Below are positions 56,437-62,460 of a DNA stretch of 64,000 nucleotides, piece by piece. The notes below the pieces were generated by a model that was not told the origin of the DNA, did no database searches, and saw nothing but the letters and a program-made list of their open reading frames with translations. Each line of letters starts with the position of its first letter. Position 1 is the stretch's first letter. Origin of the DNA: Thermoleophilaceae bacterium. Lineage in GTDB: Bacteria > Actinomycetota > Thermoleophilia > Solirubrobacterales > Thermoleophilaceae. A program made the position numbers and the translations under genes. The stretch covers positions 185,778 to 249,777 of the forward strand of contig JAUJNZ010000001.1 in assembly GCA_030447905.1 (NCBI GenBank), given 5' to 3'.

Positions 56437-56880
56437 CTACTTGGGCGTAAGGACTAGCAGCAGACCGCCGTCCTCGTCGTAGGCCGGGAAGATGTCGGCC
56501 TTGGCGGGCTCCGGGCGATCGCCCTCGGCATGCACGGTCACCGGCTTGTCGAGCATGCGGACCCCCCACTCGAGCGCCGTTCCGATGTGGTCGGAGCCGT
56601 TGTCGAACTCGAGCCCGAGGACGTCGCGGACCCCGCGCCCGATCACGTCGGTGTCGCCGAGCCCGGTGAGCTCGCGCGTGCCCCGGCCGGCGCCGATGAC
56701 GCGCGCGTCCTGGTCGCAGACGAAGAAGGCGGCGTTCGGGGCCGGGTAGTAGTCGTCGAGCAGCTCGAACAGGAAGCCGAAGCCGCACTTCGGGCAGCTC
56801 TTGGGGCGTGAGCCAAAGCCCGCGGTGCGCTCGCTCGAGGCGAGCCGGTTGCCGCAGCTGGGGCAGATGAAGTTGGCCAT
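56437..56880 (-). CDS. Zinc-ribbon plus PAS-like protein
   Basis: 147 residues. The N-terminal zinc ribbon is CPSCG and CPKCG (about residues 6-30), joined to a PAS-like domain (about 45-145: AAFFVCDQDARVIGAGRGTRELTG, quoted only in part of its length, then VIGRGVRDVLGL). ATG 56880 is preferred over a frame starting 13 codons earlier. CATAAT stands 13 bases upstream. No effector domain, so it probably acts by binding a partner in response to a ligand or redox cue. It sits 36 bases upstream of secDF on the same strand and may be cotranscribed. Confidence 0.7.
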   Translation of the reverse strand: MANFICPSCGNRLASSERTAGFGSRPKSCPKCGFGFLFELLDDYYPAPNAAFFVCDQDARVIGAGRGTRELTGLGDTDVIGRGVRDVLGLEFDNGSDHIGTALEWGVRMLDKPVTVHAEGDRPEPAKADIFPAYDEDGGLLLVLTPK

Positions 56881-57008
56881 GGTCGCGAAGATGATTATGG
56901 TCGAGAAGCGCTCGAACAAGGGTAGTCGTCGCCCGGGTCGCCCTCACCGAGCTCGATGGCGTAGAACTCCGGCCCCGACGCCGGTCTCAACCTCGAGAGG
57001 AGCACCAA

Positions 57009-57635
57009 ATGGACCTCATCGCCCGCCTCGACGCCGTACGCGAGCGCTGGAACGTGCTGCGCCACCCGTTCTACCTGCGCTGGAGCGCGGGCACGCTCGA
57101 GCGCTCGGAGCTCGCCTATTACGCGGGCGAGTATCGCCATGCCGTCGTCGCGCTCGCCCAGGCGACCGCCGCCGCCGCGGAGGCGGCCGAGCCCGAGTTG
57201 AGGGCCGAGCTGTCGCGCCACGCCGACGAGGAGGCCGCGCACGTCTCGCTCTGGGACGACTTCGTCGCGGCGCTCGGCGGCGAGACCGGCCGTGCCGCCC
57301 GGCTCGAGACCGCAGCCTGCGCCGAGGCCTGGACCGGCGGCGACGACCTGCTCGAGCGCCTCGCGGTGCTGTACGCGGTCGAGTCCGCTCAGCCCCCCGT
57401 CGCGCAGACGAAGCTCGAGGGCCTGTGCAACCACTACGGGATGGGCGCCGACGACCCGGGGACTGCCTACTTCGTCGTGCACTCGGAGCGTGACCACGAG
57501 CACGCGGCGCAGTCGCGGCGCCTGCTGCACGACCGTGCCGGCGAAGACGACGCCGATCGCCTCGTCGAGCAGGCCGAGAGCGCGCTGCGGGGGAACTGGT
57601 GGCTGCTCGACGGAGTGGAGGCTCGCTCGGGCTGA
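57009..57635 (+). CDS. CADD-like heme-oxygenase-fold diiron enzyme
   Basis: 208-residue all-helical protein of the TenA/PqqC/HDO superfamily. Features matching Chlamydia CADD: HPFYLRW with Tyr22, a Glu/His cluster HADEEAAH (E74/E75, H78), E125 and K135 exactly ten residues apart, and H158-x3-D162-x2-H165. In CADD the equivalent Tyr and Lys are used in self-sacrificing synthesis of 4-aminobenzoate. The second-helix metal His is not perfectly aligned by eye, so metal content is uncertain. A good Shine-Dalgarno (AGAGGAG) precedes ATG. It stands alone, divergent from the zinc-ribbon/PAS gene. Alternatives: PqqC-like or another HDO oxygenase. Confidence 0.75.
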   Translation: MDLIARLDAVRERWNVLRHPFYLRWSAGTLERSELAYYAGEYRHAVVALAQATAAAAEAAEPELRAELSRHADEEAAHVSLWDDFVAALGGETGRAARLETAACAEAWTGGDDLLERLAVLYAVESAQPPVAQTKLEGLCNHYGMGADDPGTAYFVVHSERDHEHAAQSRRLLHDRAGEDDADRLVEQAESALRGNWWLLDGVEARSG

Positions 57636-57651: not shown

Positions 57652-58701
57652 TCAGAACAGGCTCGCCGCCTCGTGGGGGCGCTCGAGCCCGAGGTGCGCA
57701 AAGGCGGCGCGGGTGGCCTGACGCCCGCGCGGGGTGCGCTGGAGGAAGCCCTGCTGCAGGAGGTAGGGCTCATACACGTCCTCGATCGTGTCGGCCTCCT
57801 CGGCGACTGCGACGGCGAGCGTCGAGAGCCCGACGGGCGAGCCGGCGAACTTTTCGCACAGCGCGCGCAGGATCTCGCGATCGAGGCGGTCGAGGCCGGC
57901 CTCGTCGACCTCGAGCAGGTCGAGGGCGTCATCGGCCAGCGGGGCGTCGATCCTCCCCTCTCCACGGACCTCGGCGAAGTCGCGGATGCGGCGCAGCAGG
58001 CGGTTGGCCACCCTCGGGGTCCCTCGCGCGCGGGACGCGATGGCGCGGGCGCCCTCGTCGTCGACCTGGACCTCGAGGATCCTCGCCGAGCGCCGGACGA
58101 TCGTGGCGAGCTCGTCGGGCCCGTAGAGGTCGAGCCGGTGGCTCACCCCGAAGCGGTCGCGCAGCGGCGTGGAGATGAGCCCGGCCCGGGTGGTCGCGCC
58201 GACGAGCGTGAAGGGCGGCAGGTCGAGGGTGACCACCCGCGCGCCCGCCCCCTGCCCGACGGTGATCGGCAGCCTGCGGTCCTCCATCGCCGGGTAGAAG
58301 GTCTCCTCGATCGCGCGCGGGAGGCGGTGCAGCTCGTCGACGAAGAACACCGAGCGCGGCTCGAGCGCGGTCAGGAAGGCGGCGATGTCGGCCTTGCGCT
58401 CGAGCGCCGGGCCGGCGGTCTCCACGAACGGCGCCTCGAGCTCATGGGCGACGATCTGGGCGAGCGACGTCTTGCCGAGGCCAGGCGGTCCGGCGAGCAG
58501 CACATGGTCGAGGGCCTCTCCGCGGGCCCGGGCGGCCTCGATGAAGATCGAGAGCTGGTCGCGCACCGCGTGCTGGCCGACGAAGTCGGCGAGGCGGCGA
58601 GGCCGCAGCGAGCGGTCGAGCTCCTCGTCGGCGGGCTGGGCCGGGGCGGCCTGGAGGCGGTCTACCCCCGGGGTTCGGATCCCGGGTGTCGAGGCGGTCA
58701 C
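57652..58701 (-). CDS. ruvB: Holliday junction branch-migration helicase RuvB
   Basis: Hexameric AAA+ motor. Walker [10 protein letters not shown], Walker B FVDELHR, sensor 1 GATTRAG, Arg finger TPLRDRFG and the C-terminal winged helix with [14 protein letters not shown] and [16 protein letters not shown]. 349 residues. GTG 58701 overlaps the ruvA stop (GTGA). Last gene of ruvC-ruvA-ruvB and convergent with the CADD-like gene. Confidence 0.98.
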
Positions 58702-60111: not shown

Positions 60112-62460
60112 CTGAGCCTCACCTCACCTCGGGGCGGGTCGAGCCGCCGCGCCCGGCTTGGCGGCACCGGCGTCGTCGCGCTCTTCTCGGCCGCGCTCTT
60201 TTTGAGCGCGGCGCTCATGTTCAGCGTCCAGCCGATGTTCGCTCGGTTCGTGCTGCCGTTGTTCGGCGGGACTCCGGCGGTCTGGAGCACCTCGCTGGTC
60301 TTCTTTCAGACCGCGCTCCTCGCCGGCTACCTGTACGCGCACGAGACGACGCGGCGCCTCGGCGTGCGCCGCCAGGCCGCCCTCCATCTCGGGGTGGTCC
60401 TGCTCGCCCTGCTCGTCCTGCCGCTGGCGGTCCCCGAAGGTTGGGCGCCCACGGGCGGAGAGAGCCCGGTGCCCCTTCTGCTCGGCCTGCTGGCGGTGGC
60501 CGTCGGCCTGCCGTTCTTCGTGGTCTCCACGACCGCGCCGCTGCTTCAGCGCTGGCTGGCCGGGACCGACCATCCGGCGGCCCGGGACCCCTACTTCCTC
60601 TACCGTGCGAGCAACCTCGGCAGCGTCCTCGGCCTGCTCGCCTACCCGCTCGCGGTCGAACCGACGCTGGGGCTCGCCGAGCAGGGTGCCGCGTGGGCGG
60701 TGGGCTACGCCCTGCTCGCCGCGCTCGTGGCCGCGTGCGCGGCGGTGGTGTGGCGGTCCGGGCGCCAGGTCGCCACATCGCCGCCGCCGGCGCCGGCGCC
60801 GGGCGCGGCTGGGCTGCCGCCCGACCCGGCTTCGCCGGCGGCGGCGGAGCGCCCGGTCACCGCCAAGCGGCGCCTGCGCTGGATAGGGCTCGCCTTTGTG
60901 CCCTCGAGCCTCATGCTCGGCGTGACGAGCTACATGACCGTCGACCTCGCGCCTGTGCCGCTCCTGTGGTCGGTGCCGCTGTCGCTGTACCTCGTCTCGT
61001 TCATCGTCGCCTTCGCCCCGGGGGCTCGCAACGAGCGGCGCCATCGCCGACTTGTCCTCGCCTTGCCCGTCGCCGCTCTGCTCCTGTCCCTGCTGATCCT
61101 CCTCGAGGCGCGCGAGCCGCTGTGGGTGGTCATCCCCGTGCACCTGACCGGCTTCCTCGTGGCCGCACTCGTCTGCCACGGGGAGCTCGCGCGCGACCGC
61201 CCGGCGGCGCGGTCGCTGACCGAGTTCTACATCTGGATCGCCGTCGGCGGTGCGCTTGGCGGCGTCTTCAACGCGCTGCTCGCGCACGTGCTGTTCGACT
61301 CCCTGACCGAGTACCCGCTCGTCGTCGCGCTCGCGTGCCTGTGCCTCCCGCGGAGGCCGGGGCGCTTCCCCGCGGGTCCGCAGACCCGGTGGCTCGACTT
61401 CGCCGCGCCGGCGCTGCTCGGCGCCGTGGTGGCGACGATCCTCGCCCTCGCCGGTCGCGCGGGGCCCGAGCTCGAGCTCGCCGGGCGGGGGTTCGCCCTG
61501 AGCGTGGCCGCGGGCGTGGCGCTCAACTTCGCGCGCCGGCCGCTGCGCTTCGCGCTGTCGGTGGGGGCGATCCTGGTCGCCGGGGCCCTGCTGGCCCCGG
61601 GCGATCGGGTCCTCTACCAGGAGCGCAGCTTCTTCGGGGTCAACCGGGTCGAGGCCGAGCCGGGGCGGTTTCACCGCCTCGTCAACGGGACGACCACCCA
61701 CGGGGGCCAGTACCTCTCCCCCGGCCGCGCGCTCCGACCGACCACCTACTACCACCAAAGCGGGCCGATAGGGCAGTTCATGGCCACCCGCCCGCGGGCC
61801 GGGAGGACCGATCGAGTGGCGGTCCTGGGCCTGGGGGGCGGAGGCATGGCCTGCCACGCGCGCGCGGGCGAGCGTTGGACCTTCTACGAGATCGACCCCA
61901 CGGTCGAGCGCGTGGCGCGCGACCCGAGCCTGTTCACCTACATGCGGGACTGCCCGGGGCACCGCGAGGTCTTCCTCGGGGACGCTCGCCTGTCGCTCGC
62001 CGGGGCCCGTGACCGCTCCTACGGCCTCATCGTGGGCGACGTCTTCAGCTCGGACGCGATCCCGACGCACCTGCTGACCCGCGAGGCCGTGCGGCTCTAC
62101 CGCTCGAAGCTGACGGCCGACGGCGTGCTCGCCCTGCACATCTCGAACCGCTACCTCGAGCTCGGGCCGGTGGCCGCCGAGCTCGCGCGCGACGCCGGGC
62201 TCACCTGCCTCTCCCAGGACGAGCCGGAGGCGGCGGCACGCCTAGTGCCCGGCAAGGCCGCCGCTCACTGGGTGCTGATGGCGGCGACGCCGGGGCTCGT
62301 CGGGTCGGTGGGCTCCGACCCTCGCTGGCGGCCGTGCCGCTCCGAGCCCGGCGCCGAGGTCTGGACCGACGACTTCTCGAACCTCGTCGAGGCGCTCGAC
62401 CTGCGGATCCTCCCGGCGGGCCGCGGCGATGAAGCGGAGCGCGCGAGCTCGGGTCGGTAG
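60112..62460 (+). CDS. Large membrane-anchored spermidine-synthase-like fusion, start uncertain
   Basis: About 780 residues: some 12-14 hydrophobic segments in the first 490 residues, then a class I SAM-fold/spermidine-synthase domain (VAVLGLGGGGMACHA, YEIDPTVERVARD, FLGDARLSL, DVFSSDAIPTHLLTREA). The first helix begins about GVVALFSAALFLSAALMF, but the first TTG in frame (60202) would cut it. CTG 60112 restores it and overlaps, as CTGA, the stop of an 8-codon frame from GTG 60090. A single missing base there would also join that GTG to the gene. Substrate unknown. No downstream coupling is visible. Confidence 0.8.
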   Translation: MSLTSPRGGSSRRARLGGTGVVALFSAALFLSAALMFSVQPMFARFVLPLFGGTPAVWSTSLVFFQTALLAGYLYAHETTRRLGVRRQAALHLGVVLLALLVLPLAVPEGWAPTGGESPVPLLLGLLAVAVGLPFFVVSTTAPLLQRWLAGTDHPAARDPYFLYRASNLGSVLGLLAYPLAVEPTLGLAEQGAAWAVGYALLAALVAACAAVVWRSGRQVATSPPPAPAPGAAGLPPDPASPAAAERPVTAKRRLRWIGLAFVPSSLMLGVTSYMTVDLAPVPLLWSVPLSLYLVSFIVAFAPGARNERRHRRLVLALPVAALLLSLLILLEAREPLWVVIPVHLTGFLVAALVCHGELARDRPAARSLTEFYIWIAVGGALGGVFNALLAHVLFDSLTEYPLVVALACLCLPRRPGRFPAGPQTRWLDFAAPALLGAVVATILALAGRAGPELELAGRGFALSVAAGVALNFARRPLRFALSVGAILVAGALLAPGDRVLYQERSFFGVNRVEAEPGRFHRLVNGTTTHGGQYLSPGRALRPTTYYHQSGPIGQFMATRPRAGRTDRVAVLGLGGGGMACHARAGERWTFYEIDPTVERVARDPSLFTYMRDCPGHREVFLGDARLSLAGARDRSYGLIVGDVFSSDAIPTHLLTREAVRLYRSKLTADGVLALHISNRYLELGPVAAELARDAGLTCLSQDEPEAAARLVPGKAAAHWVLMAATPGLVGSVGSDPRWRPCRSEPGAEVWTDDFSNLVEALDLRILPAGRGDEAERASSGR

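Follow-up and report, generated by a model that had tools for sequence, protein, structure and literature searches.

A CADD-like protein of a Thermoleophilaceae bacterium as a candidate self-sacrificing 4-aminobenzoate synthase

The window, which is the whole stretch of 64,000 nucleotides analysed here, carries a gene for a CADD-like HDO protein that starts with ATG and is preceded by a Shine-Dalgarno-like motif (Table 1). On its left lie a divergent gene for a PAS-fold protein, which as far as seen is apparently no part of the CADD-like system, and, beyond it, a SecD/SecF fusion gene. On its right, ruvB and the genes that follow it are convergent with the candidate gene, which is therefore solitary and outside any folate operon. 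No linkage to folate genes was seen by eye, using crude gene calls, in the window or in the 12-kb neighbourhoods of eight relatives; only an AhpC/TSA-like gene and ispH recur near the CADD-like gene in the neighbourhoods of relatives. This AhpC/TSA-like (redoxin) gene adjoins the CADD-like gene at four loci, with ispH close by, and its Pfam score is slightly below the cut-off in both proteins tested. It could supply reducing power or could merely reflect a conserved gene order. Elsewhere in the window, one gene encodes a probable membrane protein whose C-terminal part resembles, by eye, a spermidine-synthase-type methyltransferase.

Table 1. Positions of the candidate gene, its neighbours and the related loci discussed in the text.
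Feature	Sequence	Coordinates	Strand	Remarks
Candidate CADD-like HDO gene	window	57009..57635	+	208 aa; candidate self-sacrificing 4-aminobenzoate synthase
Shine-Dalgarno-like AGGAG	window	56998..57002	+	6 bases 5' of the ATG of the candidate gene; read from the sequence
Divergent neighbour	window	56437..56919	-	160-aa protein; N-terminal cysteine motif and PAS fold
Convergent neighbour ruvB	window	57652..58701	-	followed by ruvA, ruvC
Probable membrane protein gene	window	60202-62457	+	752 aa; no Pfam match
AhpC/TSA-like gene	L092	4793-5635		adjoins CADD-like gene
AhpC/TSA-like gene	L093	4885-5676		adjoins CADD-like gene
AhpC/TSA-like gene	L094	5215-6027		adjoins CADD-like gene
AhpC/TSA-like gene	L096	6470-7237		adjoins CADD-like gene
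menF	L003	805-2289	+	beside menD-like gene
f34 CADD-like gene	L163	1489-2070	+	short E-x2-H pair
f34 CADD-like gene	L164	1387-1971	-	short E-x2-H pair
Degenerate CADD-like paralog	L088	2209-2913	-	Tyr22, Lys135 and most ligands lost; frame open
Degenerate CADD-like paralog	L089	2038-2622	-	Tyr22, Lys135 and most ligands lost; frame open
CADD-like gene, same-genus draft	G067:C192	2862-3482		one of two copies
CADD-like gene, same-genus draft	G067:C66	7284-7904		one of two copies

The best family match of the candidate protein is NCBIfam TIGR04305 (fol_rel_CADD), which aligns over the full length (E=2.7e-28) but with 99 bits, below the family cut-off of 200 bits. Its close relatives score 92-122 bits, and among ten relatives scanned L152, from family f19, is alone in exceeding the cut-off, with 281 bits. 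The nearest relative with a name is a Thermoleophilaceae MAG (81% identity), the others being Thermoleophilia and Actinobacteria MAGs. In a phmmer search against the PDB, full-length alignments were obtained with CADD of Chlamydia trachomatis (CtCADD, CT610; PDB 1rcw, 8va9; E=1.8e-23) and with 9pj4 (E=2.3e-15). The latter is deposited as a 4-aminobenzoate synthase, and its identity with NePabS (NE1434) of Nitrosomonas europaea is deduced from peptides quoted in PMC11965152. A profile made from 74 homologs finds CADD (2e-51) and NePabS (3e-49), then BesC (3e-10) and UndA (5e-8); by sequence, the candidate protein is not nearer BesC or UndA than CADD. The AlphaFold model (mean pLDDT 97.7) predicts a heme-oxygenase-like fold that is closest to CADD, the four best Foldseek matches in the PDB all being CtCADD (TM 0.87-0.89, rmsd 2.0-2.2 A), with 28% identity in the structural alignment.

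The first-pass annotation had likened Tyr22, E125, K135, H158, D162 and H165 to the special residues of CADD. All six are found at these positions in the sequence and align exactly to Tyr27, E142, K152, H174, D178 and H181 of CADD, in the usual numbering of the CADD ligands. Thus, Tyr22 and K135 stay at the CADD positions in the sequence alignment, and the best structural match of the model is the same protein. Two ligands have to be added to this list, E75 and H78 (E81/H88 in CADD), which are spaced more closely than in CADD. The alignments also equate W82 with W92, V124 with Y141 and Y154 with Y170, the last of these being kept as Tyr. From the sequence, three His and three carboxylates (E75, H78, E125, H158, D162 and H165) are predicted to be the dimetal ligands and, by analogy, Tyr22 and Lys135 the sacrificial residues; CtCADD has in common with the candidate the fold, the six ligands and the sacrificial Tyr and Lys. 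In NePabS, Tyr25, Tyr41 and Lys159 are essential while changes of Tyr45 or Trp99 weaken activity (PMC11965152), and these five residues are all conserved in the candidate, as Y22, Y38, K135, Y42 and W82 respectively in the alignment.

These five residues and all six ligands are invariant in 56/56 close homologs. The weakest homolog, G104, aligned unreliably and was left out of the counts. Among 74 homologs spread over the phylum (32-82% identity to the candidate protein), invariance extends to H19, F21, Y22, W25, G28, Y38, Y42, E75, H78, F85, E125, K135, G138, L139, H158 and L200, while D162/H165 are almost invariant. Since Y22, E125, K135 and H158 never vary in this set, the residue match with CADD is not due to chance.

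Many different reactions are carried out by HDO-fold proteins (PMC13108848), one of which, DtpC, is a stress protein (PMC13232832). The candidate could thus be a CADD-fold oxygenase unrelated to PABA (4-aminobenzoate) whose substrate is a separate small molecule, as for BesC, UndA, PqqC, SznF or DtpC, as would suit a gene with no adjacent folate gene and an E-x2-H spacing unlike that of CADD. This is nevertheless very unlikely. UndA, BesC, PqqC and other HDO/TenA-like proteins share the fold and, for the HDOs, the type of dimetal ligands, but the similarity in sequence is marginal, and the family profile matches CADD and NePabS some 40 orders of magnitude better than those enzymes. Furthermore, the Tyr and Lys pair, which is required for self-sacrifice only, is invariant in the 74 homologs, whereas BesC has no such pair at these positions and UndA (chain 4wwj) aligns a Tyr without the Lys. 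Such an enzyme would also leave unexplained the mutual exclusion with PabB that is described below. BioE, a diiron oxygenase of biotin synthesis that is also found in Chlamydia, was dropped as a comparison because it is ferritin-like and has different ligands (PMC12915131).

The genome that carries the candidate gene has folP-folB-folK but no full pab pathway. A chorismate-binding domain is found only in TrpE and MenF, and no PabB with the PIKGT motif was found in this genome. Its TrpE carries a PIAGT motif, scores above the TIGR00564 cut-off and adjoins trpG, and its MenF scores above the TIGR00543 cut-off and adjoins a menD-like gene. The menaquinone branch thus keeps a chorismate enzyme while the PABA branch is without any. 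A class IV aminotransferase that resembles both D-amino-acid transaminase and PabC, with scores below the cut-offs, is left in the genome and is possibly PabC. In the same way, each of 12 good relatives from 9 genera that have only the CADD-like gene, checked singly, encodes exactly one TrpE (PI/VAGT) and one MenF; PIKGT PabB is absent from all 12, including one single-contig genome and one that is 100% complete.

The genome, estimated as 95% complete, is split into 25 contigs, and the missing PabB could be ascribed to a gap in the draft assembly, the CADD-like gene then being a redundant or regulatory relic. This is extremely improbable, considering that PabB is likewise missing in 31 good genomes, including the single-contig G002 and the 100%-complete G025, and that the catalytic residues are fully constrained among close homologs. 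Neither is a stray contig or a binning error likely, since the candidate gene shares one 389-kb contig with trpE.

Across the order, the CADD-like gene and PabB are almost mutually exclusive. The 105 good genomes (>=90% complete, <=5% contaminated) comprise 31 with the CADD-like gene only, 61 with PabB only, 5 with both and 8 with neither (Fisher p=3e-14). As the genomes are kin, the PabB labels were also shuffled within genera: 92 good genomes have exactly one of the two genes, against a mean of 82.3 after shuffling (p=8e-4), and the same shuffle over all 151 genomes gives p=1e-4. Both states occur inside seven genera. PabB was sought with several queries and falls into type A, a PabA-PabB fusion, and type B, a PabB-PabC fusion, both with PIKGT, and two rarer types, C and D, which were assigned by scores, identity and genus rather than by motif; without types C and D, the exclusion is still seen (Fisher 6e-11). 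The good genomes with neither gene (G008, G018, G022, G047, G069, G100, G139 and G148) could be PABA auxotrophs, have assembly gaps or use another route.

These genomes suggest that another source of PABA is possible in some members of the order. Joined to the presence of TrpE and TrpG and to the retained class IV aminotransferase, this would fit an unrecognised PABA route, for example a bifunctional TrpE/TrpG acting with a PabC-like aminotransferase, or scavenging, with the CADD-like gene otherwise employed and its loss where PabB is retained coincidental. We consider this very unlikely: the TrpE proteins of genomes with the CADD-like gene carry PI/VAGT and not the PIKGT of PabB, the genomes with PabB also have TrpE, and the exclusion is repeated within seven genera. 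The CADD-like gene rather looks like a replacement of PabB across the order, standing in, as judged from gene content, for PabABC. The alternative folate precursor route proposed in the first-pass annotation is therefore supported by the absence of PabB from the own genome and, strongly, by the order-wide exclusion.

With high probability, the product of the candidate gene is a heme-oxygenase-like dimetal oxygenase that, in the manner of CADD and NePabS, turns side chains of its own into 4-aminobenzoate for folate synthesis; this PABA would very probably derive from tyrosine and lysine. The chemistry is transposed from these two enzymes: how the metals are loaded, how O2 is activated and the radical transferred, how Tyr22 is cleaved, that Lys135 donates the amine and how much one protein yields. 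By this analogy, two metal ions bound at the six ligands would react with O2 and a reductant. The oxidation would reach Tyr22 through a relay of aromatic residues, possible members being Y154, W82, Y42 and Y38, and the Tyr22 side chain would be cleaved at C-alpha/C-beta, leaving a glycine. The carboxylate oxygens would come from O2 and the amino group from Lys135, so that each protein molecule would give at most one PABA, which would enter the folP-folB-folK pathway in place of the product of PabA/PabB/PabC. Several points were counted against this reading: the E-x2-H pair, the Val at the position of CADD Tyr141, the score under the TIGR04305 cut-off, the lack of folate linkage, the five genomes with both genes and the eight with neither, and the possible PabC.

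Self-sacrificing PABA synthases are already known, their carriers being found in Chlamydia, Wolbachia, Rickettsia, Chloroflexi, Sphingomonas and Nitrosomonas (PMC11965152), and no report of one in Actinomycetota was found in the part of the literature that was covered. What sets the candidate apart from the known ones is its sub-threshold NCBI score and its re-spaced metal site. The organism of CtCADD, for which the details used here rest on PMC11965152 and PMC13108848, lacks pab genes, as the own genome lacks PabB. The candidate differs from CtCADD in its E-x2-H pair (E-x6-H in CtCADD), in the Val at CADD Y141 and in its location outside a folate gene cluster in a free-living actinobacterial lineage, with no role in host cell death implied. 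The gene of NePabS also lies outside a folate operon in a free-living bacterium, but NePabS has E-x6-H and an extra loop, and its two metal-selecting residues, 148 and 177, are both Phe where the candidate has Val124 and Tyr154.

The first ligand pair is E75-x2-H78 throughout the class and in family f34, E-x4-H in f10 and E-x6-H in the other families, CADD and NePabS. The enzyme UndA uses a short E-x2-H pair, which makes a functional site at such spacing plausible in the candidate protein. The two f34 proteins listed in Table 1 keep the sacrificial Tyr and Lys, and their third motif is one residue shorter (HAADYHEAD instead of H-x3-D-x2-H). Position 124 is Val or Ile in the class and Tyr or Phe in other families, whereas position 154 is Tyr in the class. 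In NePabS, the F177Y change shifts the metal preference to Mn/Fe (PMC11965152). As the candidate has Tyr154, the use of Mn can be predicted, although this is a guess. With its re-spaced site and altered aromatic relay, the clade may have a metal preference of its own.

The destruction of an enzyme for one precursor molecule is odd outside parasites, yet this trick, known from Chlamydia and Nitrosomonas, looks like the usual way to the vitamin across a large free-living bacterial group. If it is the sole source of PABA in many soil actinobacteria, its cost would be tolerable in free life and the route would not be a by-product of genome reduction. As the clade falls below the NCBI cut-off, standard annotation leaves a hole in the PABA branch, which the candidate gene would fill. 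Natural variants in ligand spacing and relay residues, as well as dead paralogs, could be useful for the study of metal choice and radical transfer, the control of which was described as unresolved for HDOs in a 2026 review (PMC13108848).

A homolog was found in 36/396 genomes sampled phylum-wide; other actinobacterial families with homologs are f10, f19, f34, f43, f46 and f52. In the gene tree, whose deep forks are weak and whose bootstrap is not fully settled, the class is separate from the other actinobacterial families, f34 among them, and family f3 forms one supported clade. This fits mainly vertical descent in the class together with repeated exchange for PabB. The best reading is a non-orthologous replacement of PabABC with largely vertical inheritance in an actinobacterial class. 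It is somewhat probable, beyond this, that the self-sacrificing route is the ancestral or default one in this free-living class, with several swaps for PabA-PabB or PabB-PabC fusions, inactive relics in some of the genomes that swapped, a re-spaced site and an altered relay.

The two degenerate paralogs, which count in favour of the PABA reading, have His/Cys in place of Tyr22 and Gln/Met in place of Lys135, and their host genomes carry PabB of types B and A; long branches make their position in the gene tree unsafe. As their frames have stayed open, they possibly serve some new purpose other than catalysis, or are relics in decay. Finally, a draft genome of the same genus as the candidate has two copies of the CADD-like gene (75% identity to the candidate protein), which could come from mixed strains or from a real duplication.
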